Assembly (NCBI GenBank): GCA_003202005.1
Contig: QJJF01000001.1
Location: 527,099 to 591,098, forward strand
Length of the DNA stretch: 64,000 nt
Origin: Williamsia faeni
Lineage (GTDB): Bacteria; Actinomycetota; Actinomycetes; Mycobacteriales; Mycobacteriaceae
Direction: 5' to 3'
This document shows, piece after piece, positions 26,352 through 56,681 of the stretch (position 1 is its first letter; each line of letters starts with the position of its first letter). Under the pieces are notes generated by a model. It did no database searches, was not told the origin of the DNA, and saw nothing but the letters and a program-made list of their open reading frames with translations. The position numbers were made by a program, and so were the translations under genes.

Positions 26352-26376
26352 CTATCCTCATAAGGATAGCAATACT
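26352..26376 (+). promoter_or_regulatory. Island operator site A and promoter
   Basis: CTATCCT-CATA-AGGATAG is a perfect inverted repeat (7-bp arms, 4-bp spacer). One nt after it comes AATACT (26371-26376), a plausible -10 box for the first rightward operon. The sequence after the site (AATACTTG) recurs after site D at 55818. The three related sites in this island imply one regulator, probably the GntR protein at 55,878. Confidence 0.75.
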
Positions 26377-28065: not shown

Positions 28066-28073
28066 TCGCGGCC

Positions 28074-28937: not shown

Positions 28938-28977
28938 GCAAACACCAACCGGGACAATACTTTTGAAGGAGAATGTC

Positions 28978-30363: not shown

Positions 30364-30409
30364 CGGCCTCACACCACGACCACCAGTCAATACCGATCAA
30401 GGAATCAGA

Positions 30410-34870: not shown

Positions 34871-34921
34871 GTCAGGCAGCAATGGACAACCATGTGGCAC
34901 AACAAGGGAATTGGGGCAATC

Positions 34922-36358: not shown

Positions 36359-36370
36359 CAGCGAGTGACG
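36341..36370. repeat. 10-bp tandem repeat (three copies) at the ALDH stop
   Basis: GCGAGTGACA, GCGAGTGACA and GCGAGTGACG follow each other in exact register. The unit is not a multiple of three, and the stop TGA of the aldehyde dehydrogenase lies in the second copy, so slippage would change its C-terminus. The next gene's start lies just after the repeat. Confidence 0.85.
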
Positions 36371-37761: not shown

Positions 37762-37804
37762 CATCAATCACCGCAATACATCTACCCACCGCACGGAGGA
37801 CATC

Positions 37805-38371: not shown

Positions 38372-38382
38372 GAGAAGTACAC

Positions 38383-41652: not shown

Positions 41653-42914
41653 TAGTAGCCCCTCTGCTGGATGACGTGTGCCTCGCGGGATAGGTCTTCC
41701 TGAAAGTCCGGATGTGCAATCGCGATAAGGCGTTTGGTGCGCTCGGCCAGGCTCTGGCCGCGCAGCGCAGCCGCACCGAACTCGGTGACGATCACATCGA
41801 CATCGCTACGCGGTGTGGTGACCGGACCCGACAGCGTCGCGGTGATCCGACTGATCGTTCCCTTTTTCGCGGTTGCCGGAAGCGCGATGATCGCGTGACC
41901 GCCCAGCGACCGGGCTCCTCCACGAACGAAATCGAGCTGGCCGCCGGTGCCACCGAGGTAGGCGGCGCCACTCTGCTCGGCGTTGACCTGACCGGTCAGA
42001 TCCACTTCCAGAGCTGAATTGATGGTCACCAGATCATCGAGCTGGGCCATCACCGCCGCCTCGTGGGTATACGCCGTGTTGCACATGCGCAGTTCCGGAT
42101 TCTGATGGGCGAAGTCATACAGTCGCCGGGTACCGATCAGGGCACCCGCGATGCTCACGCCCTTGTCAATTCGCTTGCGGGCGTTGGTGACCGCGCCGGA
42201 CTCGATGAGGTCGACCAGGCCGTCACCGACCATGCCGGAATGCACACCTAGGTCCTTGCGATCGCGCAGCAGCCGCAACATCACCTCGGGCACCGCGCCG
42301 ATGCCCATCTGGATGACGGCACCGTCGCCGATGAACGCGGCAGCGTGCTGCGCCATCGCCATGTCGGTGTCGGTGATCGGCCCGGGCCTCACCTCCACCG
42401 GAGGCCGCGAGACGTGCACGGCGTAGTCGATGGCGGAGGCCGGGATCGTTTCGCCGTAGCTGAACGGCACCTGATCGTTCACCTCGGCGATGACAACGCG
42501 GGCCTTGGCCACCGCAGCCTGTACGTAGTCCGCGATGAGTCCGAGACTGTGGTTGCCGTCGGCGTCGGCGGGACTGACCTGGATCAGGGCGACGTCACAC
42601 GCAAAGTCGCCGCTCGTGATCATCGGGGCGATCTGGCCGACATGGCACGGAACCACGTCCAGCTCATGGGCTTTGCTCATCACCCGCAGCGAGCCCATCG
42701 CCCCCATACTCGACAGCCGGAAACTCTTCGACGTTTCCGGCGTGAAGAGTCCGGAGAAACTGGTCGAGATGAACGCCGACAGTCCCCCGACCTCATGGCC
42801 CTGCTCGATCAGGGCTTCGATGAGTGTTGTGGGTTCACCACATGCCTGACCGATGACGATCCGATCGCCAGGGAGCAGGTAACGTTGCAGGTCGATCGCT
42901 ACGGCGTCCGTCAT
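41652..42914 (-). CDS. Acetyl-CoA hydrolase/4-hydroxybutyrate CoA-transferase family protein
   Basis: The 420-residue protein has the family I CoA-transferase pattern: GDRIVIGQACGEPTTL, ALIQVSPADADGNHSLGLIA, GDGAVIQMGIGAVPEVML and the catalytic-region VTINSALEVDLTGQVNAEQS (Glu). It moves CoA between carboxylates. The ATG at 42914 overlaps the upstream stop (TGATG), giving tight coupling. With the family III transferase next to it, two CoA transfer steps are encoded together. Confidence 0.88.
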   Translation of the reverse strand: MTDAVAIDLQRYLLPGDRIVIGQACGEPTTLIEALIEQGHEVGGLSAFISTSFSGLFTPETSKSFRLSSMGAMGSLRVMSKAHELDVVPCHVGQIAPMITSGDFACDVALIQVSPADADGNHSLGLIADYVQAAVAKARVVIAEVNDQVPFSYGETIPASAIDYAVHVSRPPVEVRPGPITDTDMAMAQHAAAFIGDGAVIQMGIGAVPEVMLRLLRDRKDLGVHSGMVGDGLVDLIESGAVTNARKRIDKGVSIAGALIGTRRLYDFAHQNPELRMCNTAYTHEAAVMAQLDDLVTINSALEVDLTGQVNAEQSGAAYLGGTGGQLDFVRGGARSLGGHAIIALPATAKKGTISRITATLSGPVTTPRSDVDVIVTEFGAAALRGQSLAERTKRLIAIAHPDFQEDLSREAHVIQQRGY

Positions 42915-44071
42915 CACGACCACGTCCCCTCGGCCGAACGCAACTGTGCCTTGACCTCTTCGGTGTTCTCACCGAGCCGGGGGGCCGCACTGTCGATCCG
43001 GCCGGGGGTTCGGGAGAACCACGTGGGTGGTCCCGGGAAACGTACTGTGCCATACGGTGACTCGACTTCTTCGAAGAAGTCGACCGCTTCCAGATGTGGA
43101 TTGTCGAACAGCTCGTCGAGGGAACGGACCGGCGCGGCCGGAACGTCCAGGGAGCGCAGCAGGTCGAGCCACTCCTGGGTGGTGCGTTCGGCAAATGTCT
43201 GTCCCAGAAGCGAGTACACCTCGTTGATGCGAGCGGCCCGCTGCTCGAGGGTGGCGAAGTGCTCCCCTGCCCATTCAGGGGCAACAGCACCGACAAATGC
43301 GTTCCACTGTTTGTCGTTGTAGACCAGCGCCGAGATGTGTCCGTCCTTGGTGCGATACGGCTTTCGATTCGGTGACACCGCCCGGTGGTAGGCGGCCGGC
43401 CCGAGCGGCGGCGTGAACATCGCACCGCCGGCGTGTTCGACCAGCATGAAGGCGGCCATCGTCTCGAACATCGCCACCTCGACCTCTTGGCCTTCACCGG
43501 TGCGTTCCCGGTGGAACAGCGCCATCGTGGTGGCGTAAAGGGCCGTCATGCCCGCGACCTTGTCGGCGATGATGGTGCCGACATAGCTGGGTTCGCCGGT
43601 CAGCAGTTCCTGTGCGAACGGCAGACCGCATTCGGCCTGGATGGTGTCGTCGTAGGCGGTGAGATTCGCGTCCGGACCGCCCCGGCCGTATCCGTAGCAG
43701 TTCGTGTAGACGATCGACGGGTTGATCGCGGCGACCGCGTCGTAGTCGAAGCCGAGCTTGGCGATCGCCGTCGCGCGCATCGAGTGGATGAAGACGTCGG
43801 CGGTCGTGATCAGGTCACGCAGAACCTGCTTGTCGTCGTCGGTCCGCAGATCGAGAACCACGCTGCGTTTGCCGCGGTTCACGTTCACGAACACCCCACC
43901 CATGCCGGGTTCGGGCCCCACCGAGATGTATCGGGTGTTGTCCCCAGAAGGGATCTCGACCTTGATGACGTCTGCGCCCATGTCGGCCATCACCTGCGTG
44001 CAGTAAGGCCCCATGACCATTGCCGTCAGATCAACTACGCGTACTCCGGCCAACGGACCTGTGTGTTTCAT
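42914..44071 (-). CDS. CaiB/BaiF family III CoA-transferase
   Basis: The 385-residue protein has the formyl-CoA/bile-acid CoA-transferase pattern: GPLAGVRVVDLTAMVMGPYC, ADVIKVEIPSGDNTR, RGKRSVVLDLRT, and NLTAYDDTIQAECGLP, where the family's catalytic Asp lies. Family III enzymes move CoA from one acyl-CoA to a free acid without ATP. ATG 44071 is preceded by GAGGTTGGG. It is divergent from the ligase at 44,147, and the shared gap holds operator site B. Confidence 0.9.
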   Translation of the reverse strand: MKHTGPLAGVRVVDLTAMVMGPYCTQVMADMGADVIKVEIPSGDNTRYISVGPEPGMGGVFVNVNRGKRSVVLDLRTDDDKQVLRDLITTADVFIHSMRATAIAKLGFDYDAVAAINPSIVYTNCYGYGRGGPDANLTAYDDTIQAECGLPFAQELLTGEPSYVGTIIADKVAGMTALYATTMALFHRERTGEGQEVEVAMFETMAAFMLVEHAGGAMFTPPLGPAAYHRAVSPNRKPYRTKDGHISALVYNDKQWNAFVGAVAPEWAGEHFATLEQRAARINEVYSLLGQTFAERTTQEWLDLLRSLDVPAAPVRSLDELFDNPHLEAVDFFEEVESPYGTVRFPGPPTWFSRTPGRIDSAAPRLGENTEEVKAQLRSAEGTWS

Positions 44072-44113
44072 CCCCAACCCAACCTCATCGACAACTAACC
44101 CAAGCTATCAGGT

Positions 44114-44146: not shown

Positions 44147-45670
44147 GTGGAGATTTCAAAGCCGATCGGGCAGGTCCTGGAACCCTCTCTCGCGGTCCGC
44201 CCAGATGCGCCCGCGATCGAAGCCGCCTCCGGCATCTGGACGTACACCGAACTCGACGACCAAGCCCGGCGGGCCGCTGGTGCGTTGTGGTCGTTGGGCG
44301 TGCGCCCGGGCGACCGTGTCGCCGCCTGCCTTCCCAACGACCTCGACATCGTTGCAGCCTTCCACGGCGCGCAACGGATCGGTGCGATCTGGACCGGCGT
44401 CGGCGAAGCCCTGGCAGCCGGAGAACAACAAGACATCGTCGACCTTTGTGAGCCGGCCGCGTTCCTGACCGGCACGAACGGCAAGGTCTCAGGCCCGGAG
44501 TGTGTCGATCCGCAGCACTGGTCCGAATTGATCCACAGCGATCTGGACGCGCCACCGGTGGAGCCGGACATCGATGCACCGGCCGGGATCGCGTTCACCA
44601 GCGGGACCTCAGGTCGCCCCAAAGCAGTGGTCCACAGTCACCGGAACCTACTGTTGCCGGGCGCAGCACTTGTCAGCTCCCGCGGATGGGGCCCTGACCT
44701 GCGCAAGGGCGACAGTTTTCCGCTGACGATCCTCAACCTCATGGTGCTGTCGACGCTGCTCACCGCACAGGCAGGCGGATGCGCGGTGGTGATGAACCGC
44801 CGCGACGTCGAAGGCGTCATCGAGTGGATCAGCAGCCGGCGCGTGACCGTATGGAACGGCGCACCGGCCCAGCTCTACGACCTCGCACGCCGCCCCGACG
44901 CCGACCTGAGCTCACTCCGGGAGGTGTGGAGCGGCGGCGGCGACACCTCCGACGCCCTGCGCCAGGAGTTCGCCGACGCCCACGGACTGATCCCCCGCGT
45001 CACCTACGGACTGACCGAGGCGCCGACCGTGGTCTCGATCGATCCGGCGGACGGCCGGTGGCAGCACCGCGCCAGCGGCCAGGTTCTCCCGCACTTCGAC
45101 GTCGCCGCCTTCGACGACGACAACAATCGGCTGCCGGCCGGCGAAGTCGGCGAGCTGAAGCTGGCCGCTGCGACCGACGGCGAGTGGGCGGGTGTCTGGC
45201 GGTCGATGCTCGGCCACTGGGGCCCGAACGGACTCGACGTATCGCCCCCGGGCCCATTGGCCACCGGCGACATCGGGACCGTCGACGACAACGGCTGGCT
45301 GACCGTCGTCGACCGCAAGAAGCTGGTGATCATCAGGGGCGGGGCCAACATCTATCCACTCGAGGTGGAACGCGCCATCGGCACCCACCCGGACGTCGAG
45401 CGCGTGGCGGTGTACCCGATACCGGATGACCGCCTGGGCCAGCGGGTCGCGGCCGTGGTGGAGAGCAAGCAGCCCACACTTGATTTCGACGCCCTCGCCG
45501 CCCATTGCCGCCGCGAGGTGTCGTCGTACAAGGTCCCCGAGACGTGGGCGCAGGTCACCGCATTGCCGGTGAATGCCATGGGTAAGGTGCAGCGCGCCGG
45601 CCTCGCCGAGTTCGTCGAAGAACAACGTATTGCCGGCGGGCAGGCCACATCGAAGGGAACGACCGCGTGA
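44147..45670 (+). CDS. AMP-forming acyl-CoA synthetase 1 (ANL superfamily)
   Basis: The 507-residue protein has the ANL P-loop AFTSGTSGRPKAVVHSH, the motif YGLTEAPTV, and the C-terminal hinge and Lys region (VVDRKKLVIIRGGANIYPLE, KVPETWAQVTALPVNAMGKVQ). It activates a carboxylate to an acyl-AMP and then acyl-CoA. GTG 44147 has no leader and follows directly on the promoter, so the mRNA is probably leaderless. GTGA couples it to the next SDR. A second ligase is at 48,779. Confidence 0.92.
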   Translation: MEISKPIGQVLEPSLAVRPDAPAIEAASGIWTYTELDDQARRAAGALWSLGVRPGDRVAACLPNDLDIVAAFHGAQRIGAIWTGVGEALAAGEQQDIVDLCEPAAFLTGTNGKVSGPECVDPQHWSELIHSDLDAPPVEPDIDAPAGIAFTSGTSGRPKAVVHSHRNLLLPGAALVSSRGWGPDLRKGDSFPLTILNLMVLSTLLTAQAGGCAVVMNRRDVEGVIEWISSRRVTVWNGAPAQLYDLARRPDADLSSLREVWSGGGDTSDALRQEFADAHGLIPRVTYGLTEAPTVVSIDPADGRWQHRASGQVLPHFDVAAFDDDNNRLPAGEVGELKLAAATDGEWAGVWRSMLGHWGPNGLDVSPPGPLATGDIGTVDDNGWLTVVDRKKLVIIRGGANIYPLEVERAIGTHPDVERVAVYPIPDDRLGQRVAAVVESKQPTLDFDALAAHCRREVSSYKVPETWAQVTALPVNAMGKVQRAGLAEFVEEQRIAGGQATSKGTTA

Positions 45671-46422
45671 CGGAGATGTTCGACCTCAAAGGCAAGGTGG
45701 CCATCGTGACCGGCGCATCGTCGGGACTCGGGGTCGCGGTCGCGCAGACCCTGGCCGACGCCGGCGCACGGGTTGCGGTGGTGGCCCGCCGCAAGGAAAA
45801 GCTGAGCGAAGTCGCCGAGCGCATCGACGGCCTGGCCGTTGCGTGCGATCTCTCGGACCTCGAGCAGGTCGGCACCATCGTGCCCACAGTCGTCGACGAA
45901 CTCGGTCCACCGGACATCATCATCAACGCCGCCGGAAGCATGTTCACCGAGGAGAAGGCCGAGGTCGAGCCACTCGAGGCCATCCGGCAGACCCTCGGTT
46001 TGAACCTGATGGCCCCTTTTCTGCTGGCCCAAAGCGCCTTTCCCCACATGGTCGCGGCCGGCGGTGGTTCGATCGTGAACATCTCGTCGATCAGTGGACA
46101 GGTCGGGATCCCCGGGATCCCGCAGGCGTCCTACGCGGCGAGCAAGGCCGGCCTCTCCGGCCTGACGGTCGAGCTCGCGGTGCAATGGGCGAGGCACTCG
46201 ATCCGGGTGAACACGGTGGCTCCGGGATTCTTCCGGAGCGAGATCACCACGCCGCTCTACACCAATGAGCGCTCGTCGGCGTACCTGCGCCGAAACACAC
46301 CTCTACCGAAGGAAGGTTCCGCGCAAGACATAGTCGGCGCTGTGCTCTGGCTCGCCTCCGACGCCGGAAGTTACGTCACCGGTCAGACCATCAAGGTCGA
46401 CGGCGGCTGGACGGCTCGCTGA
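45667..46422 (+). CDS. Short-chain dehydrogenase/reductase
   Basis: The 251-residue SDR has VAIVTGASSGLGVAVAQTLA, INAAGSMFTEEKAEVE, NISSISGQVG and QASYAASKAGLSGL (Tyr/Lys). The C-terminus is YVTGQTIKVDGGWTAR. It is translationally coupled to the ligase by GTGA and ends the unit. The nearest role is dehydrogenation of a hydroxyacyl-CoA or a ring alcohol. A second unit starts after 111 nt with operator site C. Confidence 0.9.
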   Translation: MTEMFDLKGKVAIVTGASSGLGVAVAQTLADAGARVAVVARRKEKLSEVAERIDGLAVACDLSDLEQVGTIVPTVVDELGPPDIIINAAGSMFTEEKAEVEPLEAIRQTLGLNLMAPFLLAQSAFPHMVAAGGGSIVNISSISGQVGIPGIPQASYAASKAGLSGLTVELAVQWARHSIRVNTVAPGFFRSEITTPLYTNERSSAYLRRNTPLPKEGSAQDIVGAVLWLASDAGSYVTGQTIKVDGGWTAR

Positions 46423-46457: not shown

Positions 46458-46484
46458 CAATCCTTGTGAGGATTAACGTAATGT
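46458..46484 (+). promoter_or_regulatory. Island operator site C and promoter
   Basis: CAATCCT-TGTG-AGGATTA is a near-perfect copy of the island inverted repeat (one terminal mismatch). TAATGT (46479-46484) follows after 3 nt as a candidate -10. The next start codon, ATG 46534, lies about 43 nt downstream of the expected transcript start. Confidence 0.72.
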
Positions 46485-46533: not shown

Positions 46534-47517
46534 ATGTTTTCGGCAGTTGTCATCGAAAAGGGCGAAGCAGGGCAATCGGTTGCCGTGCAGAACGTCGAGG
46601 AATCCGCACTTCCGGACGGAAACGTCCAGATCGACGTGGACTACTCCTCACTCAACTTCAAAGACGCCCTTGCCATCACCGGCAAGTCCCCGGTGGTCCG
46701 CAAGTTCCCGATGGTGCCCGGCATCGACCTCGCAGGCACCGTCACGGCCAGCTCGCACGGCGACTGGTCCGAAGGCGATCGGGTAGTCCTCAACGGCTGG
46801 GGCGTCGGTGAAACCCACTGGGGCGGCTTCGCCCAGCGCGCGAGCCTCAACGGCGACTGGCTGGTCCCGCTGCCCGCCGAGTTCACCGCGAAGCAGGCCA
46901 TGGCGATCGGTACCGCCGGCTACACCGCCAGCCTCTGCGTCGAGGCCCTGGTCAACGCCGGCGTCCGCCCGGAGCAGGGCGAGATCCTCGTGACCGGAGC
47001 CACCGGCGGTGTCGGCAGCGTTGCGATCGCACTCCTGACCAAGGCCGGATTCACCGTGGCCGCATCCACCGGCAAGTCGTCCGAGGTCGAGTACCTCCAG
47101 AAGCTCGGTGCAACCACGGTCGTCGACCGCGCCGAACTGTCCGAAAAGGGCAAGCCGATGCAGAAAGAGCGCTGGGCGGGAGTTGTCGATTCCGTCGGTA
47201 GCTTCACCCTGGCCAACGCCTGCGCCCAGACCCGCTACGGCGGCACCGTCACTGCCTGCGGTCTCGCACAGGGCATGGACTTCCCCGCCTCGGTCGCGCC
47301 GTTCATCCTGCGTGGCGTGTCGCTCCTGGGCATCGACAGCGTGATGGCACCCAAGGATCGGCGGATCACCGCCTGGGCACGCCTGTCCCGCGACCTGGAT
47401 CCGAGCGCCCTGGAATCGATCGCCACCGAGATCTCACTTGCAGAGTCGATCAATGCAGCCGATCAGCTGATGGACGGCACCGTCCGTGGCCGCATCGTCG
47501 TCGACGTCAATCGCTGA
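46534..47517 (+). CDS. acuI: AcuI/YhdH-type acrylyl-CoA reductase (MDR, NADPH)
   Basis: The 327-residue protein belongs to the zinc-free MDR group of YhdH/Acu[65 protein letters not shown] (NADPH) and [20 protein letters not shown]. AcuI reduces acryloyl-CoA to propionyl-CoA, but relatives reduce other enoyl-CoAs. It is the first gene after operator site C. A 15-nt gap separates it from the hydratase gene. The fold assignment is sure; the exact substrate is inferred. Confidence 0.88.
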
Positions 47518-47532
47518 ATTAGGAGCACACGC

Positions 47533-48723
47533 ATGACCAGCAACGAAACAGAATCAGTCCAGATCGACCTCTCCGACGTCGACCACCGCGTGGGCAAGCC
47601 CATTGGCGGCGGGCAACTCTGGGATCCCTGCAGCACCTCCGACATCCGTCGGTGGGCCATGGCGATGGACAACCCGAATCCCCTGCACTGGGACGAAACG
47701 TTCGCAAAGAAAAGCCGATACGGCGGACTCATCGCACCGCAGTCGATCGCGGTGGGCCTGGACTACGGGCACGGAGCCGCGCCGGCATGTGTGGGACACA
47801 TCCCGAACAGTCACCTGATCTTCGGCGGTGAAGAATGGTGGTTCTACGGAACGCCTGTGCGCCCCGGCGACAAACTGTTCCAGGAACGTCGCTTTCACGA
47901 TTACAAGATCACCGAGACAAAGTTCGCCGGCCCGACCATGTTCTCCCGTGGCGACACCACCCACAAGAATCAGCATGGTGCGCTCGTCGCCCGGGAACGG
48001 TCGACCGCCATTCGCTACCTCTCCGAGGAAGCCACCAAGCGCGGCATGTACGACAGCCAGATCGGCTCGCTCAAGAAGTGGACCAAAGAAGAACTGGACG
48101 AGGTCGACAAGCTGCGCGATGACTGGCTGATGTCCAATCGAGAGGGCATCTCGCCGCGTTTCGAGGAGGTCAAGGTCGGCGACAAACTCCATCGTCGCGT
48201 TATCGGACCGCACAGCATCGCGAGCTTCACCACCGAGTACCGCGCCTTCCTGTTCAACATCTGGGGAACATTCGAATGGGTCGCGCCCGAAGGTGTCGAC
48301 GATCCGTGGGTGTACCAGGATCCGGGCTGGATGGAAGGGTTCGGCTTCGACGAAGAGGGCGCCAAGATCGATCCGCGCAAGCGTGACGGTCTGTACGTCG
48401 GCCCTTCGCGCGGTCACATCGACAACGAGAAGGCGGGCGAGGTCGGCATGGCCCGCGCGTACGGCTACGGCGCCACGATGGGTGCCTGGTGCACCGACTT
48501 CCTGGCCAACTGGGCCGGCATCGACGGCATGGTCCGGCACACCAAGGCCGACTTCCGTGGTCCCGCCTTCGAGGGTGACGTCACCTACTTCGACGCCGAG
48601 GTCGTCGACAAGCAGGCCGAGTCCGAGTGGGGCGTGCCGCTCGTCCAGATCAAGCTGAAGCTCACCGACCAGAACGGCGTCACGCTGGTCACCTGCACGG
48701 CCGAAGTCGAGTTGCCACTCTAG
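47533..48723 (+). CDS. MaoC-like double-hotdog hydratase/dehydratase
   Basis: The 396-residue protein has two hotdog domains. The N-terminal one has RWAMAMDNPNPLHWDETFAK (the MaoC D-x4-H-type motif) and GGLIAPQSIAVGLDYG. The C-terminal one contains KVGDKLHRRVIGPHSIASFT and DFRGPAFEGDVTYFDAEVVD. Such double-hotdog enoyl-CoA hydratases act on bulky substrates in steroid and fatty-acid catabolism. It is co-directional with the reductase and the downstream ligase, with AGGAG before its start. Confidence 0.85.
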   Translation: MTSNETESVQIDLSDVDHRVGKPIGGGQLWDPCSTSDIRRWAMAMDNPNPLHWDETFAKKSRYGGLIAPQSIAVGLDYGHGAAPACVGHIPNSHLIFGGEEWWFYGTPVRPGDKLFQERRFHDYKITETKFAGPTMFSRGDTTHKNQHGALVARERSTAIRYLSEEATKRGMYDSQIGSLKKWTKEELDEVDKLRDDWLMSNREGISPRFEEVKVGDKLHRRVIGPHSIASFTTEYRAFLFNIWGTFEWVAPEGVDDPWVYQDPGWMEGFGFDEEGAKIDPRKRDGLYVGPSRGHIDNEKAGEVGMARAYGYGATMGAWCTDFLANWAGIDGMVRHTKADFRGPAFEGDVTYFDAEVVDKQAESEWGVPLVQIKLKLTDQNGVTLVTCTAEVELPL

Positions 48724-48778: not shown

Positions 48779-50506
48779 ATGAGCACTCCCAAGGTTGACT
48801 CCCCTCCGACACCGCTGTCGGTCGTGTCGGGCCCGCCACTGGACGACGAACCCGGGCTCGGCACCCTCACGATGCCGGGGTTCCTGCGTGAGGTGACCAC
48901 GCGGTTCAGCGACCGCGAGGCACTCGTCCTGCATACGCCGGAGGGGGTCATCCGCTGGAGTTACACAGAATTGTGGGAACGCGCTGTCGAGGTGGCCCGG
49001 GCGTTGCGCGCGACCGGACTCGGTAAAGACGGCCGAGTCGGCGTGCTCATGACGAACCGGCCCGAGTGGATCGCAGCAGTCTTCGGCACGTCACTTGCCG
49101 GAGGTGTTGCGGTCACACTCAGCACCTTCTCGACCCCGTCGGAGTTGGACTACCTCCTCGACGTCTCCGAGGTCTCGGTGCTGCTGTACGACCACAAGGT
49201 ATTGAACAAGGACTTGACCGCAGTCCTGACCGACCTCGATCCCGAGATCGGTACCGCCGCACCCGGCACGCTGCAGTCGGCAAAGTATCCGTTCCTGCGA
49301 CACCTCGCAGCGGTAGGGGGTCCGGGCGTCGGTGGCGAGGGCGTCGGGGCGATCGAGTCCTGGGATGTGTTCCTCGAACGTGGGCAATCCGAGCCACGAG
49401 AGCTGGTGGAGGCGACAGCCGCCGCGGTGAAGCCCAGCGACACCGCGGTGCTGTTCTTCTCCTCGGGAACGACCAGCAAGCCCAAGGGCATCTTCAGCGC
49501 TCATCGTGGAGTTTCCATTCAGCTGTGGCGCTTCTGCCAGATCTACAACTTCGGCCCGGACGACAACATCCGGTGCTGGAGCGCCAACGGATTCTTCTGG
49601 TCCGGAAATTTCGCCATGGCACTGGGCAATACGCTGGCCAGCGGTGGATCGCTCGTACTGCAGACGACCTTCGACGCCACCGAAGCGCTGGAGCTCATCG
49701 AATCCGAAAAGGTGAACTTCCCGTTCGCCTGGCCGCATCAATGGGCACAATTCGAATCGGCGCCCAACTGGGCCACAGCGGATCTGAGCAGTCTCCGCTT
49801 TGTCGACTATCGCACCCCCGTGGCCCGCCATCCGTCCGTCACCGCGGAATGGATCGAGCCCGGGTACGCCTACGGAAACACCGAAACCTTCACGATCTCA
49901 ACGATTCTCCCGGCCAACACCACCGAGGAACAGGCCGGCGGCAGCAGTGGCAAACCGCTGTCCGGCATGACGGTGAAGATCGTGGACACGTTGACCGGTG
50001 ACACCGTCCCGCTGGGCGAACGCGGTGAGATCTGCGTCAAGGGACCGACGTTGATGCTCGGATATCTCGGCACACCGCTGAGCGAGACCGTCGACGACGA
50101 AGGCTTCTTCGTCACCGGGGACGGCGGTTATCTCGACGCCGAAGGCCGTTTGTTCTGGGAAGGCCGCCTCACAGACATCATCAAGACCGGTGGCGCCAAC
50201 GTGTCACCCCTCGAGGTCGATGAGGTACTGGTCGGACATCCCGGCGTCAAGGTCACGCGTACCGTCGGCGTGCCGCACGAGACACTCGGCGAAGTGGTTG
50301 TCGCGTGCATCGTTCCGCATGACAACGCACAGCTCGACCCCGAAGAGGTCCGCACGTTCGTCAAGGCCGAGCTGGCGAGTTACAAAGTGCCGCGCCATGT
50401 TTTGTTCTTCACCGACGACGAGGTCACTCTGACCGGCAGCGCGAAAATCAAGACCAGCGAGATCCGTGAACTCGCCACGAAGAGGCTCGCTCCCGCAACC
50501 CAGTAG
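48779..50506 (+). CDS. AMP-forming acyl-CoA synthetase 2
   Basis: The 575-residue protein has the ANL P-loop VLFFSSGTTSKPKGIFSAH, AYGNTETFT, and the C-terminal GDGGYLDAEGRLFWEGRLTD then IIKTGGANVSPLEVDEVLV, with SYKVPRHVLFF and the terminal catalytic Lys region TGSAKIKTSEI. Its length and the central VFLERGQSEPREL insertion differ from the first ligase, so the two probably take different acids. GAAAGG is near the ATG. It ends the rightward block at a bidirectional terminator. Confidence 0.92.
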   Translation: MSTPKVDSPPTPLSVVSGPPLDDEPGLGTLTMPGFLREVTTRFSDREALVLHTPEGVIRWSYTELWERAVEVARALRATGLGKDGRVGVLMTNRPEWIAAVFGTSLAGGVAVTLSTFSTPSELDYLLDVSEVSVLLYDHKVLNKDLTAVLTDLDPEIGTAAPGTLQSAKYPFLRHLAAVGGPGVGGEGVGAIESWDVFLERGQSEPRELVEATAAAVKPSDTAVLFFSSGTTSKPKGIFSAHRGVSIQLWRFCQIYNFGPDDNIRCWSANGFFWSGNFAMALGNTLASGGSLVLQTTFDATEALELIESEKVNFPFAWPHQWAQFESAPNWATADLSSLRFVDYRTPVARHPSVTAEWIEPGYAYGNTETFTISTILPANTTEEQAGGSSGKPLSGMTVKIVDTLTGDTVPLGERGEICVKGPTLMLGYLGTPLSETVDDEGFFVTGDGGYLDAEGRLFWEGRLTDIIKTGGANVSPLEVDEVLVGHPGVKVTRTVGVPHETLGEVVVACIVPHDNAQLDPEEVRTFVKAELASYKVPRHVLFFTDDEVTLTGSAKIKTSEIRELATKRLAPATQ

Positions 50507-50529
50507 CGAGATGTTCTGGGATGTGGTGT

Positions 50530-50565
50530 TCTGGCGGCCGAGACCTTCGGGTCGAGGCCGCCAGA
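50530..50565. terminator. Bidirectional hairpin terminator between convergent operons
   Basis: A 10-bp outer stem (TCTGGCGGCC with GGCCGCCAGA) and an inner GACC/GGTC stem enclose a TTCG tetraloop. It lies between the ligase stop (50506) and the opposite-strand stop (50574), so it can serve both operons. Confidence 0.8.
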
Positions 50566-50573
50566 CCAGCAGA

Positions 50574-51686
50574 CTATCGGTATCGGGCGGCCAGTCCTGC
50601 GCGATGCTGCGCGGGTGAACCGAATAGTGACCGATTCAAAATGGCGCGCTTGAGGTAGACGTGGATATTGCTCTCCCACGTGTAGCCCATACCGCCATGG
50701 AGTTGCATTGCTTTACCCGCCACATCCACAGCCATCGCTGATGTGAACGACTTGGCCATCGAAACCGCCACCGCGGCATCGGGTTGGTCGGCGGCCAGCG
50801 CACTGACAGCAGCATCAACGAGCTTCTGCGCGACCGTCACCTGGACGAGCATGTCGGCGCAGGCGTGCTTCACGGCCTGAAATGATCCGATCTTGCGGCC
50901 GAATTGTTCTCGTACACCGACATATTCGACCGTCAACCCCATCACGGCCTCACTGAGCCCGAGACTGTCGCAAGCTACTCCGAGTGCCGCGCGATCGTGA
51001 AGGTGCCGCAGCGCATCCGCGCCGTCCGACGCGAACCGCCACACCGATTCCACCGGCACCACCACGTCGTCGGCGATCACGCGACCGAAGCTGCGGGTGA
51101 GGTCGACAACCGGCTGATCAACAACCGTCAGTCCACTGGTGGTCGAATCGACGGCCACGATGACAATCCCACCGCCGACATCCTCTGCATCAAGCGCGGG
51201 AATGAGGAGGCGGTCGGCGCCGGGGGCACCCAGGACCAGGTCGGCGTCACCGCGCAGGTGCCATCCCGCCTCGTCGCGGGTGATGCGGAACGACGTCTGA
51301 TCGATCTCGTCGAGGTTGCTCTCGCCTTCGACCACGACAATCGGGACGGAACCACCGGATACGGTGTCCCGCAACAGTTCATCGCGGGCCGGAGACGACG
51401 CCAGCGATTCCAGCAGTCCCAGGCTCAGTGTTGCCACGGCCGGGTAAGGGCCGGTTGTCAGGGCTCGCCCGGCTTCTCGCAGGACGACGGCCGTCTCGGC
51501 GAAAGTCGCGGCGGCGCCGTCGAATTCCTCTGCTGCTTCCAGTCCGAGCCATCCGGATCCGGCGACCTGCTGCCAATCGACCGGGGTACCGACGTCTACT
51601 TTGGCAAGCAGGTCACGTGCGACCGCACGAAGTTCCCCATGCAACTCGGAGAGATCGTGCAGTTCGGAGAGGTTGTCAGTCGACAT
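50574..51686 (-). CDS. Acyl-CoA dehydrogenase, short subunit 2 of a paired enzyme
   Basis: The 370-residue protein has the ACAD C-terminal helical domain (EQFGRKIGSFQAVKHACADM, GKAMQLHGGMGYTWESNIHV) but lacks the SEPGSGSD-type FAD loop. It carries a modified middle domain and no clear catalytic Glu. This matches the shorter, non-catalytic-looking subunits of the alpha2-beta2 dehydrogenases known from mycobacterial steroid catabolism. It overlaps the upstream long subunit by TGATG, so the pair is co-translated. It is the last gene of the leftward operon. Confidence 0.85.
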   Translation of the reverse strand: MSTDNLSELHDLSELHGELRAVARDLLAKVDVGTPVDWQQVAGSGWLGLEAAEEFDGAAATFAETAVVLREAGRALTTGPYPAVATLSLGLLESLASSPARDELLRDTVSGGSVPIVVVEGESNLDEIDQTSFRITRDEAGWHLRGDADLVLGAPGADRLLIPALDAEDVGGGIVIVAVDSTTSGLTVVDQPVVDLTRSFGRVIADDVVVPVESVWRFASDGADALRHLHDRAALGVACDSLGLSEAVMGLTVEYVGVREQFGRKIGSFQAVKHACADMLVQVTVAQKLVDAAVSALAADQPDAAVAVSMAKSFTSAMAVDVAGKAMQLHGGMGYTWESNIHVYLKRAILNRSLFGSPAQHRAGLAARYR

Positions 51687-52870
51687 CAGGCTCCCGCCGG
51701 TTCTCGCGGCAGACCGAGGCCCCGCTCGCCGATGATGTTGCGTTGTATCTCGCTGGTGCCACCCGGGATGGTCCATTCCCACGATCCGATGAAATCCAGG
51801 ACCCAGGAACCGGATTCCCATCCACTCGACAGTGGTTTACGCAGGTCGGTCTGAGCGGACAGCCCGGCGACCTCGGCACCGAAGTCGGTCAGTTGTTGCA
51901 GCAATTCGCTGTAGAACAGCTTCACGATCGAGGCATCCGCCGGCCCGGAGTCGTCGTTGGTCGCAAAGTCGGAGCAGAGCAGCCGCAGGCCGTCGATCTG
52001 AATCTCCAACTCCGCGAGCCGATCTGCCACCCGCGAATTTTCGAGCGGCACAGAGCCATTCCGGCGGGGTTTCGAGCATTCTTCGACCAGCCACCGAAAA
52101 CCACCGTGCGCCAGGCGTTCCGACAGTTCCAGCATCGTCATCCCGCGTTCGGCGCCGAGTGTCTCCTGGGCCACCTGCCAGCCGGCGTTCTCCGGACCGA
52201 CGAGATTCTCGGCCGGGATCACCACGTCGTTGAGGAAGATCTCGCAGAAGTGCGACTCGCCGGTCGCCTGCCGGATGGGCCGGACGTCGATACCTGGGGT
52301 CTGCATGTCGAGCAGGAAGTACGAGATCCCGCGCCGTTTGGGCGCATCCGGATCCGTTCGCGCCAACAGCAGGCACCAGTCGGCGTGCAGAGCGCCACTG
52401 GCCCAGAGTTTCTGGCCGTTGACGATGTACGTGTCACCGTTCTTGCGCGCAGATGTCTTGAGAGCAGCCATGTCCGAACCCGCGCCGGGTTCGGAGAATC
52501 CCTGACACCAGATCTCACCGTCGAGGATCGCCGGGAGGTGGCGTTCGCGTTGCTTCTGCGTCCCGGCGGCCAGCAGCGTGGATGCCGCGTGGTGAATCGA
52601 GACGAATGGCAACACCAGTCGCGGTGCGTCGTGGGCGGCGAGTTCTTGGTAGAGCACCACTTGTTGCTCGACCGTCATGCCGCCACCCCACGCGGCCGGC
52701 CAGTGCGGAACGGCATATCCGGCTTGGCGGAGTTCGGCGAACCAGTTCTTCTGGAAGCGGACGAACTCCTCGTCCGACACCCCGGTCTGCGCCGATCGCC
52801 AGTCCGCCGGAATGTTGTTCACACACCAATCCCGGACCGTCGCACGGAAGTCACTGAGCTCTTCTGACAT
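51686..52870 (-). CDS. Acyl-CoA dehydrogenase, long subunit 2 of a paired enzyme
   Basis: The 394-residue protein has the FAD and substrate motif CQGFSEPGAGSDMAALKTSA, YIVNGQKLWASGALHADWCL, and the C-terminal EWTIPGGTSEIQRNIIGERG. It is a complete-looking ACAD that oxidises an acyl-CoA to an enoyl-CoA with FAD and electron-transfer flavoprotein. The short partner follows directly (TGATG). The upstream enoyl-CoA hydratase also overlaps by TGATG. The family subset is inferred from gene pairing. Confidence 0.9.
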   Translation of the reverse strand: MSEELSDFRATVRDWCVNNIPADWRSAQTGVSDEEFVRFQKNWFAELRQAGYAVPHWPAAWGGGMTVEQQVVLYQELAAHDAPRLVLPFVSIHHAASTLLAAGTQKQRERHLPAILDGEIWCQGFSEPGAGSDMAALKTSARKNGDTYIVNGQKLWASGALHADWCLLLARTDPDAPKRRGISYFLLDMQTPGIDVRPIRQATGESHFCEIFLNDVVIPAENLVGPENAGWQVAQETLGAERGMTMLELSERLAHGGFRWLVEECSKPRRNGSVPLENSRVADRLAELEIQIDGLRLLCSDFATNDDSGPADASIVKLFYSELLQQLTDFGAEVAGLSAQTDLRKPLSSGWESGSWVLDFIGSWEWTIPGGTSEIQRNIIGERGLGLPREPAGA

Positions 52871-53670
52871 CAGGAGCGAGCCCGTTCCACCAGCGCCAGA
52901 AGGCGTTTGCGGTGTTCCTCGGACTGCATCGTGACAACCTCAGCGGCGAATCCGGCCTGCAATGGGCCGGCGAGGGCCTGACTCAGATGCATGTTGACGA
53001 TGCGTTTGGTGCTCTGCAACGCCTCGCGGGGTTGCGCGGCGAGACGCTGCGCCAGTTGCTGCGCCTGGTCGCCCAGGTCATCGGGGGTACAGACACGTGT
53101 TGCCAGACCCAACTCGACAGCAGTTGCTGCCGGGATCCGGTCACCGGTGTACAGGTACTCCCGCGACCTCAGGATCGGCGTCAGCAACGGCCAGAACGCC
53201 GCTCCGCCATCACCGGCGGCCAAACCGACTGCCACGTGAGGATCGGCCAGATAGGCCTTCTCCGAGATCAGCACCATGTCGCAGAGCACCGCGATACTGC
53301 AGCCGAGACCGACCGCCGGGCCGTTCACGGCAGCGATGATCGGCAGCGGGAACCGCAGCATCTCGTCGATGATCTCGGCGCCTTCGCGAATGCTCTCGTC
53401 GCGGCCGGCCGGGTCGTCGAGGAATGAGGTGATCCAGTTCAGATCTCCGCCGGCACTGAATGCCCGACCCGACCCGGTGAGGATCACCACTGCGGCGTCG
53501 CGGTCGGCAGCGATCTGCCGCCAGACGTTGGCCAGAGCCCAGTGCAGGTTCTTGTTGACCGCACCGAGGTCGTCGGGCCGATTGATGGTCACCGTGCGGA
53601 TGGGTCCGTCACTGGTCACCGTCAGTTCGTCGGGAAGATCGTATTTCACTGGTTCCCCACTGGTTGTCAT
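52870..53670 (-). CDS. Enoyl-CoA hydratase
   Basis: The 266-residue protein has crotonase oxyanion motifs FSAGGDLNWITSFLDD and AAVNGPAVGLGCSIAVLCDM, plus YLADPHVAVGLAAGDGGAAF where hydratases place their catalytic Glu; here the region is Asp/Val rich. This resembles crotonase-fold subgroups with shifted catalytic residues. ATG 53670 overlaps the upstream dehydrogenase stop (ATGA). It lies between the two ACAD pairs and probably hydrates the product of one of them. Confidence 0.88.
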   Translation of the reverse strand: MTTSGEPVKYDLPDELTVTSDGPIRTVTINRPDDLGAVNKNLHWALANVWRQIAADRDAAVVILTGSGRAFSAGGDLNWITSFLDDPAGRDESIREGAEIIDEMLRFPLPIIAAVNGPAVGLGCSIAVLCDMVLISEKAYLADPHVAVGLAAGDGGAAFWPLLTPILRSREYLYTGDRIPAATAVELGLATRVCTPDDLGDQAQQLAQRLAAQPREALQSTKRIVNMHLSQALAGPLQAGFAAEVVTMQSEEHRKRLLALVERARS

Positions 53671-54638
53671 TGAACGATCGCCGCCGGTTCGGGCATCGCG
53701 ACAGATGTGTTGCCGAAGAGTCCGGTCAGGCCCTTTCGACTCACGCGCGAGCTCAGGGCCGCGCCGGTCGCCGAAAGTCCCAGCGGGAGTCGTCGCAACG
53801 GCAGGCTGTAGCGCGAGAGCCACGAGAGTGTGGTCTCGTCGCAGAAACCGGTGGCCCCATGGAGCTGGTGGGCAACCCGGAACACGACATCGGCCGCCTC
53901 CACGGCTGCCAACCGCAACGCCAATGCGTCGTCCACGGCCTCGTCCAGGCCTGCCTCGATGCTCCACAACGCGTACTTGGCGAGGATCTCCATGCCACTG
54001 CGCTCGACCTCGGCGTCGGTGAGCTGGAACTGGACACCCTGTAGCCGCGCCAGCGGGCGGCCGAACTGTTCGCGCATGAGTACGTGCGCGCGGGTGAGTT
54101 CGAGGGCACGGTCGAGCATTCCCAGCAACGTCCAGCACGGCAGAACCAGCCCGAGGGCGAGATCCTTGGCGCCGTCGTTGTCGATCGATGCGAGCTCGAG
54201 GGGCGCGACAAACGCCGATGTACGCGGGGACGAAATCGCCGGCAGCACGGTGACCGAGCTGCGAAGGCCGCTCAATGCAACCGCAGACCATCGCAAATCG
54301 AGGTCGGCGATGGCAGCTGCGGGGCCGTGGTCGGCGACGACCACCAATCCGTCGACGTCGAGGTCGACGGGCTTGGAGAGACGTTCTGCAACCGGGTACG
54401 GGATGCCCCAGTAACCGGCGCTGCGGCACAACGCAGCCGCTGCCTCGAGTTCATCATCGTCGCCACGGGGATTGAGGTCCCAGGCGCCGAGGCCGGCGAA
54501 CACCGGTTCCAGCGCACGATCACGTCCGGCCGGATCGACTTCCGCCACTTCGAGGAGCCGGTCACCGCCGGCCGATTCGAATGCCCGCAGTGCCGTCGTT
54601 CCGTATTCGATGGCCTCTGGGCTCAGTTCGATGTTCAT
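53667..54638 (-). CDS. Acyl-CoA dehydrogenase, short subunit 1 of a paired enzyme
   Basis: The 323-residue protein has an ACAD-like C-terminal domain (MREQFGRPLARLQGVQFQLT, HQLHGATGFCDETTLSWLSR) but no SEPGxGSD FAD loop and a shortened middle domain. This fits the degenerate partner of an alpha2-beta2 dehydrogenase. The start overlaps the upstream long subunit (ATGA). Neither subunit alone is likely to be a complete standard homotetramer. Confidence 0.85.
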   Translation of the reverse strand: MNIELSPEAIEYGTTALRAFESAGGDRLLEVAEVDPAGRDRALEPVFAGLGAWDLNPRGDDDELEAAAALCRSAGYWGIPYPVAERLSKPVDLDVDGLVVVADHGPAAAIADLDLRWSAVALSGLRSSVTVLPAISSPRTSAFVAPLELASIDNDGAKDLALGLVLPCWTLLGMLDRALELTRAHVLMREQFGRPLARLQGVQFQLTDAEVERSGMEILAKYALWSIEAGLDEAVDDALALRLAAVEAADVVFRVAHQLHGATGFCDETTLSWLSRYSLPLRRLPLGLSATGAALSSRVSRKGLTGLFGNTSVAMPEPAAIVQ

Positions 54639-55783
54639 GACGCCGCCAGCAGGTTGCGAGCCAGTAGAATTTTCTGCATTTCGATGCTCCCCGATGAGAC
54701 CGTTGCCGCCTGCGAGTAGCCCCAGTGCGCCTGGACGTCGAGCCGGAATCCTTCTGCCGCCTCACCCGTCATCGGGGCGTAGGTGGCGATCTCCGCCAGG
54801 ACGCTGGCGCTGGCCTGGTCGAGTGTTGTCACCGCGATCCGGTAGAGGGCGGCGTCGGCCGGCTGTACCTGCCCCTGGCTCTGCATCGACACGACCCGAT
54901 ACGCGAGCAACCTTGCCCGACGGCAGTGCACCAGCATCCGGGCCCACCGTGCGAGGAGTTCGGCGGGCAGATTCTCCCACTCGTCGCCCAGGACCTCCGG
55001 CGCCTCTTGCAGAAGCTTCTCGCACCGGGCGTAGCGGGCGATTCCCACGCGCTCGAATGCGAGTACTTCTTGGACGACCTTCCATCCCTCGTCGACGGTT
55101 CCGAGAACATGCGCCTGCGTCACCTTGAGGTCGTTGAAAAAGACCTCGTTGAGGTGATGGGGACCAAGCATCGCGCGGATGGGCCTCACCTCGATGGCCG
55201 GATCGGACATCGGAACCAGGAAGACCGTGAGCCCGTGTTGCTTGCGCTCCCCCGATGAGGTGCGGGCGAGAAGGAAACACCACTGGGCCATCGTCGCGTA
55301 CGAGGTCCAGATCTTCTGCCCGGAAATGCTCCAGCCGTCACCCTCACGCCGCGCTGCGGTGCGCAGAGACGCCAGGTCAGAGCCCGATCCGGGCTCACTG
55401 AAGCCCTGGCACCAGATCACCTCGCCGCGCGTTATCGGCGGGAGGTGCAACTGCTGCTGCGCTTCTGTCCCGTGCCGCATGATCGTCGGCCCGACCCAGT
55501 TCACGCCCATGTACTGGGCGCCCCGCGGCTCGTGATGTGCCCACATCTCCTCGCGGACCACTGTCTGTTCCCAAACCGAGGCACCACGTCCGCCGAACTC
55601 TTCGGGCCAGGCCAGACAGAGCAGATCGCGCTCTGCGAGGAACCGACAGAATGCCTGGGCGGTTTCGAGGTCGCCCGGATCATCGGTGAACGCGCCCCGG
55701 AACTCTGCCGGGACATTGTCCTTGATCAGCCGGCGAAGGTCCTCGCGGAGCACATTCGCCGGCTCACCCAACGTGAAGTCCAT
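54635..55783 (-). CDS. Acyl-CoA dehydrogenase, long subunit 1 of a paired enzyme
   Basis: The 382-residue protein has WCQGFSEPGSGSDLASLRTA, DGWSISGQKIWTSYATMAQW, and a C-terminal YSQAATVSSGSIEMQKILLA. It is the first gene of the leftward operon. ATG 55783 lies only 15 nt from operator site D with no ribosome site, so a leaderless transcript is likely; a TTG at 55801 would start inside the operator. It oxidises an acyl-CoA alpha-beta bond together with the short subunit. Confidence 0.9.
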   Translation of the reverse strand: MDFTLGEPANVLREDLRRLIKDNVPAEFRGAFTDDPGDLETAQAFCRFLAERDLLCLAWPEEFGGRGASVWEQTVVREEMWAHHEPRGAQYMGVNWVGPTIMRHGTEAQQQLHLPPITRGEVIWCQGFSEPGSGSDLASLRTAARREGDGWSISGQKIWTSYATMAQWCFLLARTSSGERKQHGLTVFLVPMSDPAIEVRPIRAMLGPHHLNEVFFNDLKVTQAHVLGTVDEGWKVVQEVLAFERVGIARYARCEKLLQEAPEVLGDEWENLPAELLARWARMLVHCRRARLLAYRVVSMQSQGQVQPADAALYRIAVTTLDQASASVLAEIATYAPMTGEAAEGFRLDVQAHWGYSQAATVSSGSIEMQKILLARNLLAAS

Positions 55784-55798
55784 ACATGCACGGTAACT

Positions 55799-55823
55799 CA
55801 ATCCTCACAAGGATTGGAATACT
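55799..55823. promoter_or_regulatory. Island operator site D between gntR and the acyl-CoA dehydrogenase operon
   Basis: CAATCCT-CACA-AGGATTG is a perfect 18-bp inverted repeat, the best match among the four island sites. To the right AATACT (55818-55823) is a -10 box for gntR. To the left the mirrored TTACCG lies before the dehydrogenase ATG. A protein bound here would control the regulator itself and the dehydrogenase operon, the usual arrangement for autoregulated GntR proteins. Confidence 0.8.
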
Positions 55824-55877
55824 TGAATGGTAAGTCTCGTCAGATTAAGATGGCCGAGTGAATATAAGGTGGCGAGC

Positions 55878-56681
55878 GTGACAACAGTCCCGAATCGACG
55901 GGTGCCTCAGCGCCGGATCGCCGAAACCGTGGCCGACGAGCTGCGGGACAACATCCTGGGCGACGACCACTACCGTCTCCCCACCCAGGAACAACTGGTC
56001 AAGGATTTCGGCGTCAGCTACCCCTCGATCCGCGAAGCCCTGCGCATCCTGGAGACCGAAGGCCTGGTCACGGTCCGTCGCGGCAACATCGGCGGCGCGG
56101 ACGTCCACCGCCCCGACGAGACGTCGGCCGCCTACCATCTGGGCCTCTCCCTGCAGGCCGGCCGCGTCACCCTCAGGGACCTCGCAGCCGGACTGCAGAT
56201 GCTCGAGCCCATGTGTGCCGCCGAGTGCGCCAAACGCGAAGACCGCCTCGAAGTTGTGGTCCCGGCCCTGCAGAAGACCATCGACGACTCCGTCGACCAC
56301 ATCGCCAACGGCGTCGATTTCACCCATTCCGCCCGCGACTTCCACGACCTGGTCGTGTCGTTCACACCCAACGCGACCATCCGTTACGCCGTGGGCAGCT
56401 ACGTCGCACTGTGGTCGGCACAGGAAGAGGCCTGGGCAGAAGCCCGCACGCGGCATGGTGAGTACCCGTCGCAGCTCGAGGCCGAAGGTGCGGTCCACGC
56501 CCATCACCGGCTCGTCGAGGAAATCGCCGCCGGCCGGGCCGAAGAAGCCGAACGTCTGGCCCGCGCCCACCTGGCCGCGACGCAGGCACTCGTGCTCGAA
56601 CGCTACGGCGACCGCGTAGTCAACGCTTCGGCAGCGATGTCGCGCCAGACGATCCAGTCCAGCCGACGAGCCCGCAGGTAG
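55878..56681 (+). CDS. GntR-family regulator (FadR/FCD subfamily), likely master regulator of the island
   Basis: The 267-residue protein has an N-terminal winged helix (RRIAETVADELRDNILGDDH, LPTQEQLVKDFGVSYPSIRE, ALRILETEGLVTVRRGNIGG) and a C-terminal all-helical FCD-type domain. That domain has metal-like His/Asp residues (DFHDLVVSFT, HAHHRLVEEI). FadR/FCD regulators bind acids or acyl-CoAs and release DNA. GTG 55878 is preceded by AAGGTGG; 55869 and an ATG at 55827 inside the promoter are less likely. It lies at the edge of the island next to the perfect operator, supporting autoregulation and control of the other sites. Confidence 0.87.
   Translation: MTTVPNRRVPQRRIAETVADELRDNILGDDHYRLPTQEQLVKDFGVSYPSIREALRILETEGLVTVRRGNIGGADVHRPDETSAAYHLGLSLQAGRVTLRDLAAGLQMLEPMCAAECAKREDRLEVVVPALQKTIDDSVDHIANGVDFTHSARDFHDLVVSFTPNATIRYAVGSYVALWSAQEEAWAEARTRHGEYPSQLEAEGAVHAHHRLVEEIAAGRAEEAERLARAHLAATQALVLERYGDRVVNASAAMSRQTIQSSRRARR

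Follow-up and report, generated by a model that had tools for sequence, protein, structure and literature searches.

Two predicted heteromeric acyl-CoA dehydrogenases encoded side by side in a conserved, putatively GntR/FCD-controlled catabolic gene cluster of Williamsia faeni

A 64,000-nucleotide stretch of the Williamsia faeni genome (the window; positions 527099-591098 of contig C1 in an assembly of 5.52 Mb on 44 contigs) carries five overlapping genes for two pairs of acyl-CoA dehydrogenase (ACAD) subunits and an enoyl-CoA hydratase. In the following, the alpha-type gene of each pair is called long and the beta-type gene short. The assignment of long1 with short1, and of long2 with short2, to two ACADs of the alpha2-beta2 type is well supported by their sequences, and each pair very probably makes a two-part ACAD. 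As the best explanation of the data as a whole, we consider it probable that the pairs form two separate alpha2-beta2 heterotetramers that would serve the lower part of a cyclic-ketone-type pathway controlled by a regulator of the GntR/FCD type.

All five genes lie on the minus strand, in the places and the order, and with the overlaps, that a preliminary description of this DNA had claimed: long1 (54635-55783; 382 amino acids from its ATG, the called open reading frame (ORF) opening at a TTG at 55801), short1 (53667-54638; 323 amino acids), a crotonase-type enoyl-CoA hydratase/isomerase (52870-53670; 266 amino acids), long2 (51686-52870; 394 amino acids) and short2 (50574-51686; 370 amino acids from the ATG at the junction, the called ORF starting at 51821). 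Read directly, the four successive junctions overlap by ATGA, ATGA, TGATG and TGATG. A motif search confirmed that SEPGxGSD occurs in the longs only, as SEPGSGSD in long1 and SEPGAGSD in long2; SEPxxGSD is found in neither short1 nor short2, which keep REQFG together with QLHGATG (short1) or QLHGGMG (short2). The division into long and short genes is thus upheld by motif content, while the lengths themselves (382 and 394 versus 323 and 370 amino acids) differ modestly. Pfam recognizes the N-terminal, middle and C-terminal ACAD domains in long1 and long2, the N- and C-terminal domains in short2, and the C-terminal domain only in short1. A scan of positions 49900-56200 gave no promoter-like site against 0.6 expected and two terminator-like sites against 2.8 expected.

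The ACAD C-terminal domain PF00441 has 82 matches in the genome, and the stretches around all of them yielded an ACAD set of 77 ORFs, five of which are two-domain proteins. In a tree of 91 rows, both longs fall into an alpha clade of 28 rows (UFBoot 100, SH-aLRT 99) together with ChsE4, Tcur3483, chain 8hk0_A and the alpha halves of five two-domain proteins, and both shorts fall into a beta clade of 28 rows (UFBoot 99, SH-aLRT 98) together with ChsE5, Tcur3481 and five beta halves. The 103-row ACAD tree, from which the 91-row tree was derived by removing two rows with long branches and the majority of the orthologue rows, agrees with this picture. Every one of 200 bootstrap trees has a branch that separates the alpha group, and one that separates the beta group, from all other rows. 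The preliminary description had named a grouping of the shorts with ordinary ACADs as the observation that would speak against paired enzymes; the shorts group with ChsE5 and Tcur3481 instead. Among solved structures, phmmer ranks 4x28_A (ChsE4) and the Tcur3483 chains of 6wy8 and 6wy9 highest for both longs.

The same division runs through the ACADs of the entire genome, whose domains comprise 22 of alpha type, 23 of beta type and 37 others. SEPxxGSD is present in 22/22 alpha, 0/23 beta and 12/37 other domains; conversely, RxxFG is found in 0/22, 23/23 and 22/37, and QxHGGxG in 1/22, 23/23 and 27/37, respectively. At the helix-G column of ChsE4 (residue 247 of 4x28_A), a glutamate stands in all 22 alphas, in none of the 23 betas and in 11 of the 37 others; both longs have it (long1, residue 250 in P0001 numbering and 244 from the ATG; long2, Glu241), and the shorts have Gly and Ala. 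An alpha-type gene usually has a beta-type neighbour: for 15 of the 17 unfused alphas a beta lies no more than 1 kb away, in 14 cases on the same strand, against only 2 of the 37 other ACADs with any ACAD at that distance. The genome also encodes five fused two-domain ACADs, four in beta-alpha and one in alpha-beta order, and such fusions naturally suggest that alpha and beta types belong together. With the fused proteins included, 45 of the 82 ACAD C-terminal domains in the genome are of alpha or beta type.

We take SEPxxGSD to mark the alpha side that contacts the flavin ring of flavin adenine dinucleotide (FAD), and RxxFG and QxHGGxG to mark the beta side that contacts its ADP-ribose part. 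Passages of PMC8399759 describe the active glutamate as residing in one subunit only and FAD as being bound at the dimer interface of such ACADs, and passages of PMC11153573 assign the isoalloxazine ring to alpha and the ADP-ribose part to beta. The split of motifs between the longs and the shorts fits this published division of FAD and glutamate. Clade placement with known alphas and betas, complementary motifs and adjacency of the genes all agree with the alpha2-beta2 type, in line with the original proposal of heteromeric pairs.

Structural modelling of single chains adds support on the beta side. The short1 model (pLDDT 88.6, pTM 0.88, from a 14-row alignment) has beta chains of the two steroid enzymes as its first four Foldseek matches, and VIA-align ranks 6wy8_A (Z 27.9, root-mean-square deviation 2.8, 298 residues aligned), 6wy9_B (Z 27.4) and 4x28_C (Z 26.7) ahead of the next match after the beta chains, human ACADSB (Z 24.8). 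The model of long1 (pLDDT 78.8) matches 6wy8_B (Z 35.4), 8hk0_B (35.2), 6wy9_A (35.0), human isovaleryl-CoA dehydrogenase (34.7) and 4x28_A, that is ChsE4 (31.6).

The two pairs are conserved well beyond W. faeni. A match to short1 is present in 15 of 101 genomes, including the window's own, and tblastn recovered the five-gene cassette in 9 of 14 regions; in two others (L020 and L021) all four ACAD genes are present but no match to the hydratase, one (L014) ends inside long2, and two distant relatives (L023 and L024) carry a diverged long1-short1 without a clear orthologous second pair in 20 kb. From the short1 alignment L017 was omitted, as it was from that of long2, on account of a stop within the stretch, and L014, L023 and L024 were left out of the long2 and short2 alignments, the first because its contig ends there and the other two for want of a clear orthologue. 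A wider sample consisted of the best 80 of 343 stretches from named genomes, picked by their similarity to short1 and drawn from Mycobacterium/Mycolicibacterium, Rhodococcus, Nocardia, Williamsia, Gordonia, Aldersonia, Amycolatopsis, Actinophytocola, Actinomadura, Actinocorallia and others; five of these are on the same contigs as L011-L015 of the 14-region set, and nine are shorter than 20 kb, so that absences there carry little weight. Of these 80 loci, 76 show the order long1-short1-(x)-long2-short2, three have long1-short1-(x)-long2 and one has long1-short1 only; the preservation of the order in other genomes excludes chance.

What lies between the pairs is less constant. The hydratase that the preliminary description placed there is present in the window, but it is an inconstant member of the cluster, with an orthologue in 27 of the 80 loci. 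In the 76 loci in which the gap between short1 and long2 could be measured (three with a negative gap and one without long2 being excluded), the longest ORF is a match to the window's hydratase in 26. Of the 49 gap loci for which the search for orthologues gave no hydratase, 23 have an ORF of at least 300 amino acids and 26 have none longer than 60 amino acids. A fixed hydratase between the ACAD pairs is ruled out by these gaps, which elsewhere hold either another gene or almost nothing. In some mycobacterial loci a GFO/IDH/MocA-type oxidoreductase occupies the place of the hydratase; it was recognized by Pfam in L034 (10804-11826), whose gap ORF belongs to a cluster of 11 loci. With the hydratase variable and the four ACAD genes kept, the constant unit is the two pairs.

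Divergently from long1, on the plus strand, lies a gene for a GntR/FCD-type regulator (55827-56681; Pfam GntR 48.9 bits against a cut-off of 27, FCD 39.6 bits against 24.3), and between the two genes stands a palindromic operator candidate, CAATCCTCACAAGGATTG (55799-55816). The palindrome, AATCCTTNTNAGGATT, is common to the ACAD operon, the AcuI-MaoC-FadD operon (46459-46474, upstream), the monooxygenase operon (26353-26368, upstream; a weaker copy with three mismatches) and a second, ACAD-free upper pathway; the three copies at up to 3 mismatches in the window compare with 0.02 expected. Upstream of long1, AATCCTTATAAGGATT occurs at up to 4 mismatches in 23 of 25 stretches (the window and 24 loci of the same arrangement; after shuffling, the mean is 0.135 and the maximum 2), and in nearly all loci it precedes the coding match by about 33 bases. 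The palindrome was spotted in these very stretches, and its occurrence at other genes and with the regulator types are the more independent tests. The 80 loci hold 50 sites, against 0, 1 and 0 in three shuffles and 0 for a scrambled palindrome; the gene nearest to them is long1 in 20 cases, AcuI in 10, SMP30 in 7, GntR in 6, FadDa in 4 and none in 3. A site is present in 25/25 loci with an FCD-type GntR match, in 0/33 with a UTRA-type GntR and in 5/22 with neither, and the GntR/FCD regulator is likely to own the palindrome as its predicted binding site. The UTRA-type GntR (L034:8-754; a cluster found in 33 of the 80 loci, none with the palindrome) represents an apparent regulator replacement.

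Genome-wide, AATCCTTNNNAGGATT occurs at up to 1 mismatch in six places, two in the window, three at C1:1153353-1173803 and one at C2:72371, so that five of the six belong to the ACAD cluster and an upper-pathway paralogue. This second upper pathway (C1:1152484-1174723; L153:7485-18482 and L154:9849-10724) lies about 600 kb away, and its products are 78% (GntR), 85% (MaoC), 78% (SDR), 85% (monooxygenase), 84% (Rieske), 79% (thiamine-diphosphate (TPP) enzyme), 76% (SDR) and 58% (TauD-type) identical to those of the window; a family-5 solute-binding protein, a CoA-transferase and an OYE-like flavoprotein are encoded nearby. A whole-genome domain search gave no PF00441 match at this second upper pathway. 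Given that it has the palindrome but lacks PF00441, one lower pathway may serve two upper pathways.

An NDMA-dependent alcohol dehydrogenase (25128-26255; 584 bits, cut-off 440) is encoded on the plus strand. On the same strand, the presumed upper pathway of the window is encoded by the genes of an SMP-30/ScyE-like protein, possibly a lactonase (26473-28065; start proposed at the TTG at 26473 after AGGAGG, the called ORF running from 26314), an SDR oxidoreductase (28062-28937), a Rieske oxygenase alpha subunit (28963-30363), a PtlE-like Baeyer-Villiger monooxygenase (30392-32248, where 30392 is a chosen in-frame point and not a set start codon), a second SDR oxidoreductase (32203-33174), a TPP enzyme of the acetolactate synthase/2-hydroxyacyl-CoA lyase superfamily (33164-34870) and an aldehyde dehydrogenase (34892-36358). 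Towards the ACAD genes follow, on the minus strand, an enoyl-CoA hydratase/isomerase (40888-41652), a member of the acetyl-CoA hydrolase/transferase family (41652-42923) and a family III CoA-transferase (42914-44077), and on the plus strand a FadD-type acyl-CoA ligase (44147-45670), an SDR oxidoreductase (45667-46422), an AcuI-type acrylyl-CoA reductase inside the proposed regulon (46534-47517; 540 bits, cut-off 440), a MaoC/FAS1-like dehydratase as a hydratase candidate (47533-48723) and a second FadD-type ligase, convergent with the ACAD operon (48779-50506). Conserved neighbours, whose window copies lie at 26-44 kb, recur in the 80 loci as follows: Baeyer-Villiger monooxygenase 61, Rieske protein 61, SMP-30-like protein 60, SDRs 60 and 59, CoA-transferase 58, TPP enzyme 51 and aldehyde dehydrogenase 41. 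The interval from 36365 to 39956, which separates the monooxygenase operon from the CoA-transferase, encodes a TauD-type dioxygenase, SDRs and two SnoaL-like proteins; SnoaL matches occur in 2 of the 80 loci and TauD matches in none.

The monooxygenase reaches 647 bits over nearly the full NCBIfam model of PtlE (neopentalenolactone D synthase), against a cut-off of 1100, and is thus related to PtlE but no equivalog of it. It matches PDB entry 5mq6 with 402 bits; the entry is titled a pyridine nucleotide-disulfide oxidoreductase-like protein, and we take it to be a polycyclic ketone monooxygenase. The protein contains FxGxxxHxxxW[PD], presumably the fingerprint of Baeyer-Villiger monooxygenases. 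Mainly because of this PtlE-like neighbour, a cyclic ketone or terpenoid appears to be the likeliest substrate of the pathway, as judged from the gene content. The preliminary description had envisioned a steroid- or terpenoid-like acyl chain; its terpenoid-like or cyclic part remains plausible, but its steroid part is not supported.

With ChsE4 the longs share 31% and 33% identity, and long2 shares 31% with Tcur3483; elsewhere in the genome are genes with 76% identity to ChsE4 and 78% to Tcur3483, so that the window longs are not the closest relatives of these proteins in W. faeni. Steroid-24-oyl- (CasG) and steroid-22-oyl- (CasI) CoA synthetases that exceed their cut-offs are encoded on contig C8, CasI beside and CasG near the Tcur3483-like gene. 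This region (L150; C8:148000-167400) is a steroid-type cluster; besides the CasG- and CasI-type synthetase genes and the Tcur3483/Tcur3481-like pair, it contains genes for a lipid-transfer protein and a fused ACAD. Orthology of the window longs to the steroid enzymes was rejected in view of these closer relatives and steroid-CoA synthetases elsewhere in the genome.

Several known systems offer points of comparison. ChsE4-ChsE5 (FadE26-FadE27; PDB 4X28) shares the two-gene organization, the helix-G glutamate column, SEP in alpha only and RxxF and HGG in beta only, but it differs in its gene neighbours and in the modest identity noted above. Tcur3483-Tcur3481 (PDB 6WY8/6WY9), a steroid ACAD, is the best structural match of short1 and first, though tied, for long1, but its 78% identical counterpart stands on contig C8 beside the steroid-CoA synthetases. 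The Fic32-33 complex (PDB 8HK0), which we presume to act in a natural-product setting, the formation of ficellomycin, is likewise a two-chain ACAD whose 8hk0_A chain joins the alpha clade and whose title names no steroid, but its identity to long1 over the structural alignment is 24%. The products of fadE30-fadE33 pair up. Their KstR2 regulon for steroid rings C and D likewise combines several ACADs and ring-derived intermediates and, according to passages of PMC5380842, shares a CoA-transferase-like enzyme and a crotonase with the window cluster; its regulator and neighbours differ, and those passages of PMC5380842 do not mention a Rieske or Baeyer-Villiger gene. PimC-PimD, a pimeloyl-CoA dehydrogenase, is also a two-gene ACAD and gives the best NCBIfam model for the longs, but its substrate is linear and the window proteins score far under the cut-offs. 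Among the matches listed in a search of titles and abstract beginnings in the open-access literature, no description of the present cluster was found.

Four other explanations have to be weighed against two separate dehydrogenases of a cyclic-ketone-type pathway. That the pairs act on dicarboxylyl-CoA or other non-bulky acids in the manner of PimC and PimD is rather unlikely in our view. The large subunit of pimeloyl-CoA dehydrogenase is indeed the best NCBIfam model for both longs (long2 229 bits, long1 193 bits), and passages of PMC12543098 report strong fitness effects of PimCD-like genes on linear dicarboxylates (C8-C10 and C12). The opening of a cyclic ketone ring would itself yield such acids, which makes this proposal compatible with the explanation we prefer; yet the equivalog cut-offs of 624 (TIGR03204) and 653 bits (TIGR03203) are far out of reach, with short2 at 106 and short1 at 19 bits, and a PtlE-type monooxygenase stands among the neighbours. 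A role as steroid dehydrogenases for cholesterol, bile acids or the C/D rings is decidedly unlikely, even though ChsE4-ChsE5 and Tcur3481-Tcur3483 are the closest solved relatives of the longs, and passages of PMC5380842 provide both the precedent of a regulon with several ACADs, fadE30-fadE33 under KstR2, and the mention of an old proposal of a Baeyer-Villiger step in ring C breakdown. Passages of PMC11153573 tie a proline loop of ChsE4 to a roomy pocket, and both longs have this proline; however, it is found in 15/22 alphas, 12/23 betas and 3/37 others and hence says little about the substrate. Besides the 76% and 78% identical genes elsewhere, the latter next to CasI/CasG-type synthetases, the window CoA ligases score 183 and 202 bits against the steroid-24-oyl-CoA synthetase model (cut-off 750). 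In the NCBIfam model of IpdE2 (cut-off 450 bits), short2 attains 122 and short1 24 bits, below the best gene of the genome, C4:119631-120728, which itself stays under the cut-off with 204 bits in a single stretch and 299 bits over the whole protein; since no gene of the genome reaches it, this cut-off is strict.

The remaining two proposals concern the subunits themselves. It is highly unlikely that the four form one mixed complex, in which alpha-beta joins alpha'-beta', or swap partners. Such an arrangement would accord with the near-inseparability of the pairs (long2 is present in 79 of the 80 loci, which were picked by short1) and with the distances of long1, which correlate about equally with those of both shorts. 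Against it stand the members described in passages of PMC8399759 and PMC11153573, each made of one alpha and one beta, the gene overlaps that link long1 to short1 and long2 to short2, and the occurrence of long1-short1 in L023 and L024 without an orthologous second pair in 20 kb. The proposal that the shorts are decayed or independent ordinary ACADs, adjacent by accident, is extremely improbable: it could invoke the shortness of short1 and its single recognized Pfam domain, but ordinary ACADs are ruled out by the 91- and 103-row trees with their beta clade, the residues R, Q and F in RxQF, and Q, G and the final G in the second motif, do not vary among the 14 short1 and 12 short2 rows aligned, the shorts are conserved across genera, and fused alpha-beta relatives exist in the same genome.

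Several observations weigh against parts of the explanation put forward here. The long1 model does not discriminate, as human isovaleryl-CoA dehydrogenase fits it like Tcur3483 and ChsE4 fits less well, and some beta rows are long branches in both trees. Co-evolution across 51 loci does not favour the assumed pairs: the partial correlations are 0.73 (long1-short1), 0.70 (long1-short2), 0.51 (long2-short1) and 0.40 (long2-short2), and the adjacent pairing beats the crossed one in only 4% of bootstraps. The palindrome is absent from 50 of the 80 loci, 46 of them in Mycobacterium or Mycolicibacterium, and regulation through it is therefore not universal; five loci have a site but no matched FCD-type gene in the fetched stretch. 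No orthologue of the hydratase was found in 53 of the 80 loci, and there is no Thiolase_N match within the window. Two complete encoded beta-oxidation cycles were rejected for want of that match, and the two successive cycles envisioned in the preliminary description are only inferred, the hydratase being inconstant as well. Instead of a thiolase, the TPP enzyme or an enzyme of the crotonase type might carry out the cleavage.

In the mechanism that we propose for the two heterotetramers, the long subunit would form the acyl-CoA pocket, carry the catalytic glutamate on helix G and contact the flavin ring. The short subunit, devoid of pocket and glutamate, would reach over the interface to bind the ADP end of FAD, so that neither subunit would work alone. 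The ACAD pairs would act in the lower part of a catabolic pathway that is conserved among actinobacteria and that the divergent GntR/FCD regulator is predicted to control via the shared palindrome. Its upper part, with the Rieske protein, SDRs, PtlE-like monooxygenase, possible lactonase, TPP enzyme and aldehyde dehydrogenase, probably opens a bulky cyclic ketone, for example a terpenoid; CoA ligases or the CoA-transferase would then activate the ring-opened acids, and the two dehydrogenases would oxidize two different acyl-CoA intermediates. The broader proposal is that actinobacteria have a so far undescribed route for breaking down a bulky cyclic ketone or terpenoid, in which one GntR/FCD regulon lets two paralogous upper pathways feed one lower pathway, with two dedicated alpha2-beta2 ACADs as its signature steps. 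It is put forward tentatively, as an idea that may prove wrong slightly more readily than right.

With the two pairs, the family of heteromeric ACADs gains a sharply defined, widely conserved and apparently non-steroid case, and the complementary half-site signature offers a means to sort the ACADs of a genome. Through the shared palindrome, what was a guess about a single operon becomes a regulon that can be tested, and this predicted regulon names enzymes of a catabolic route that occurs in environmental mycobacteria, rhodococci, nocardiae and their relatives.

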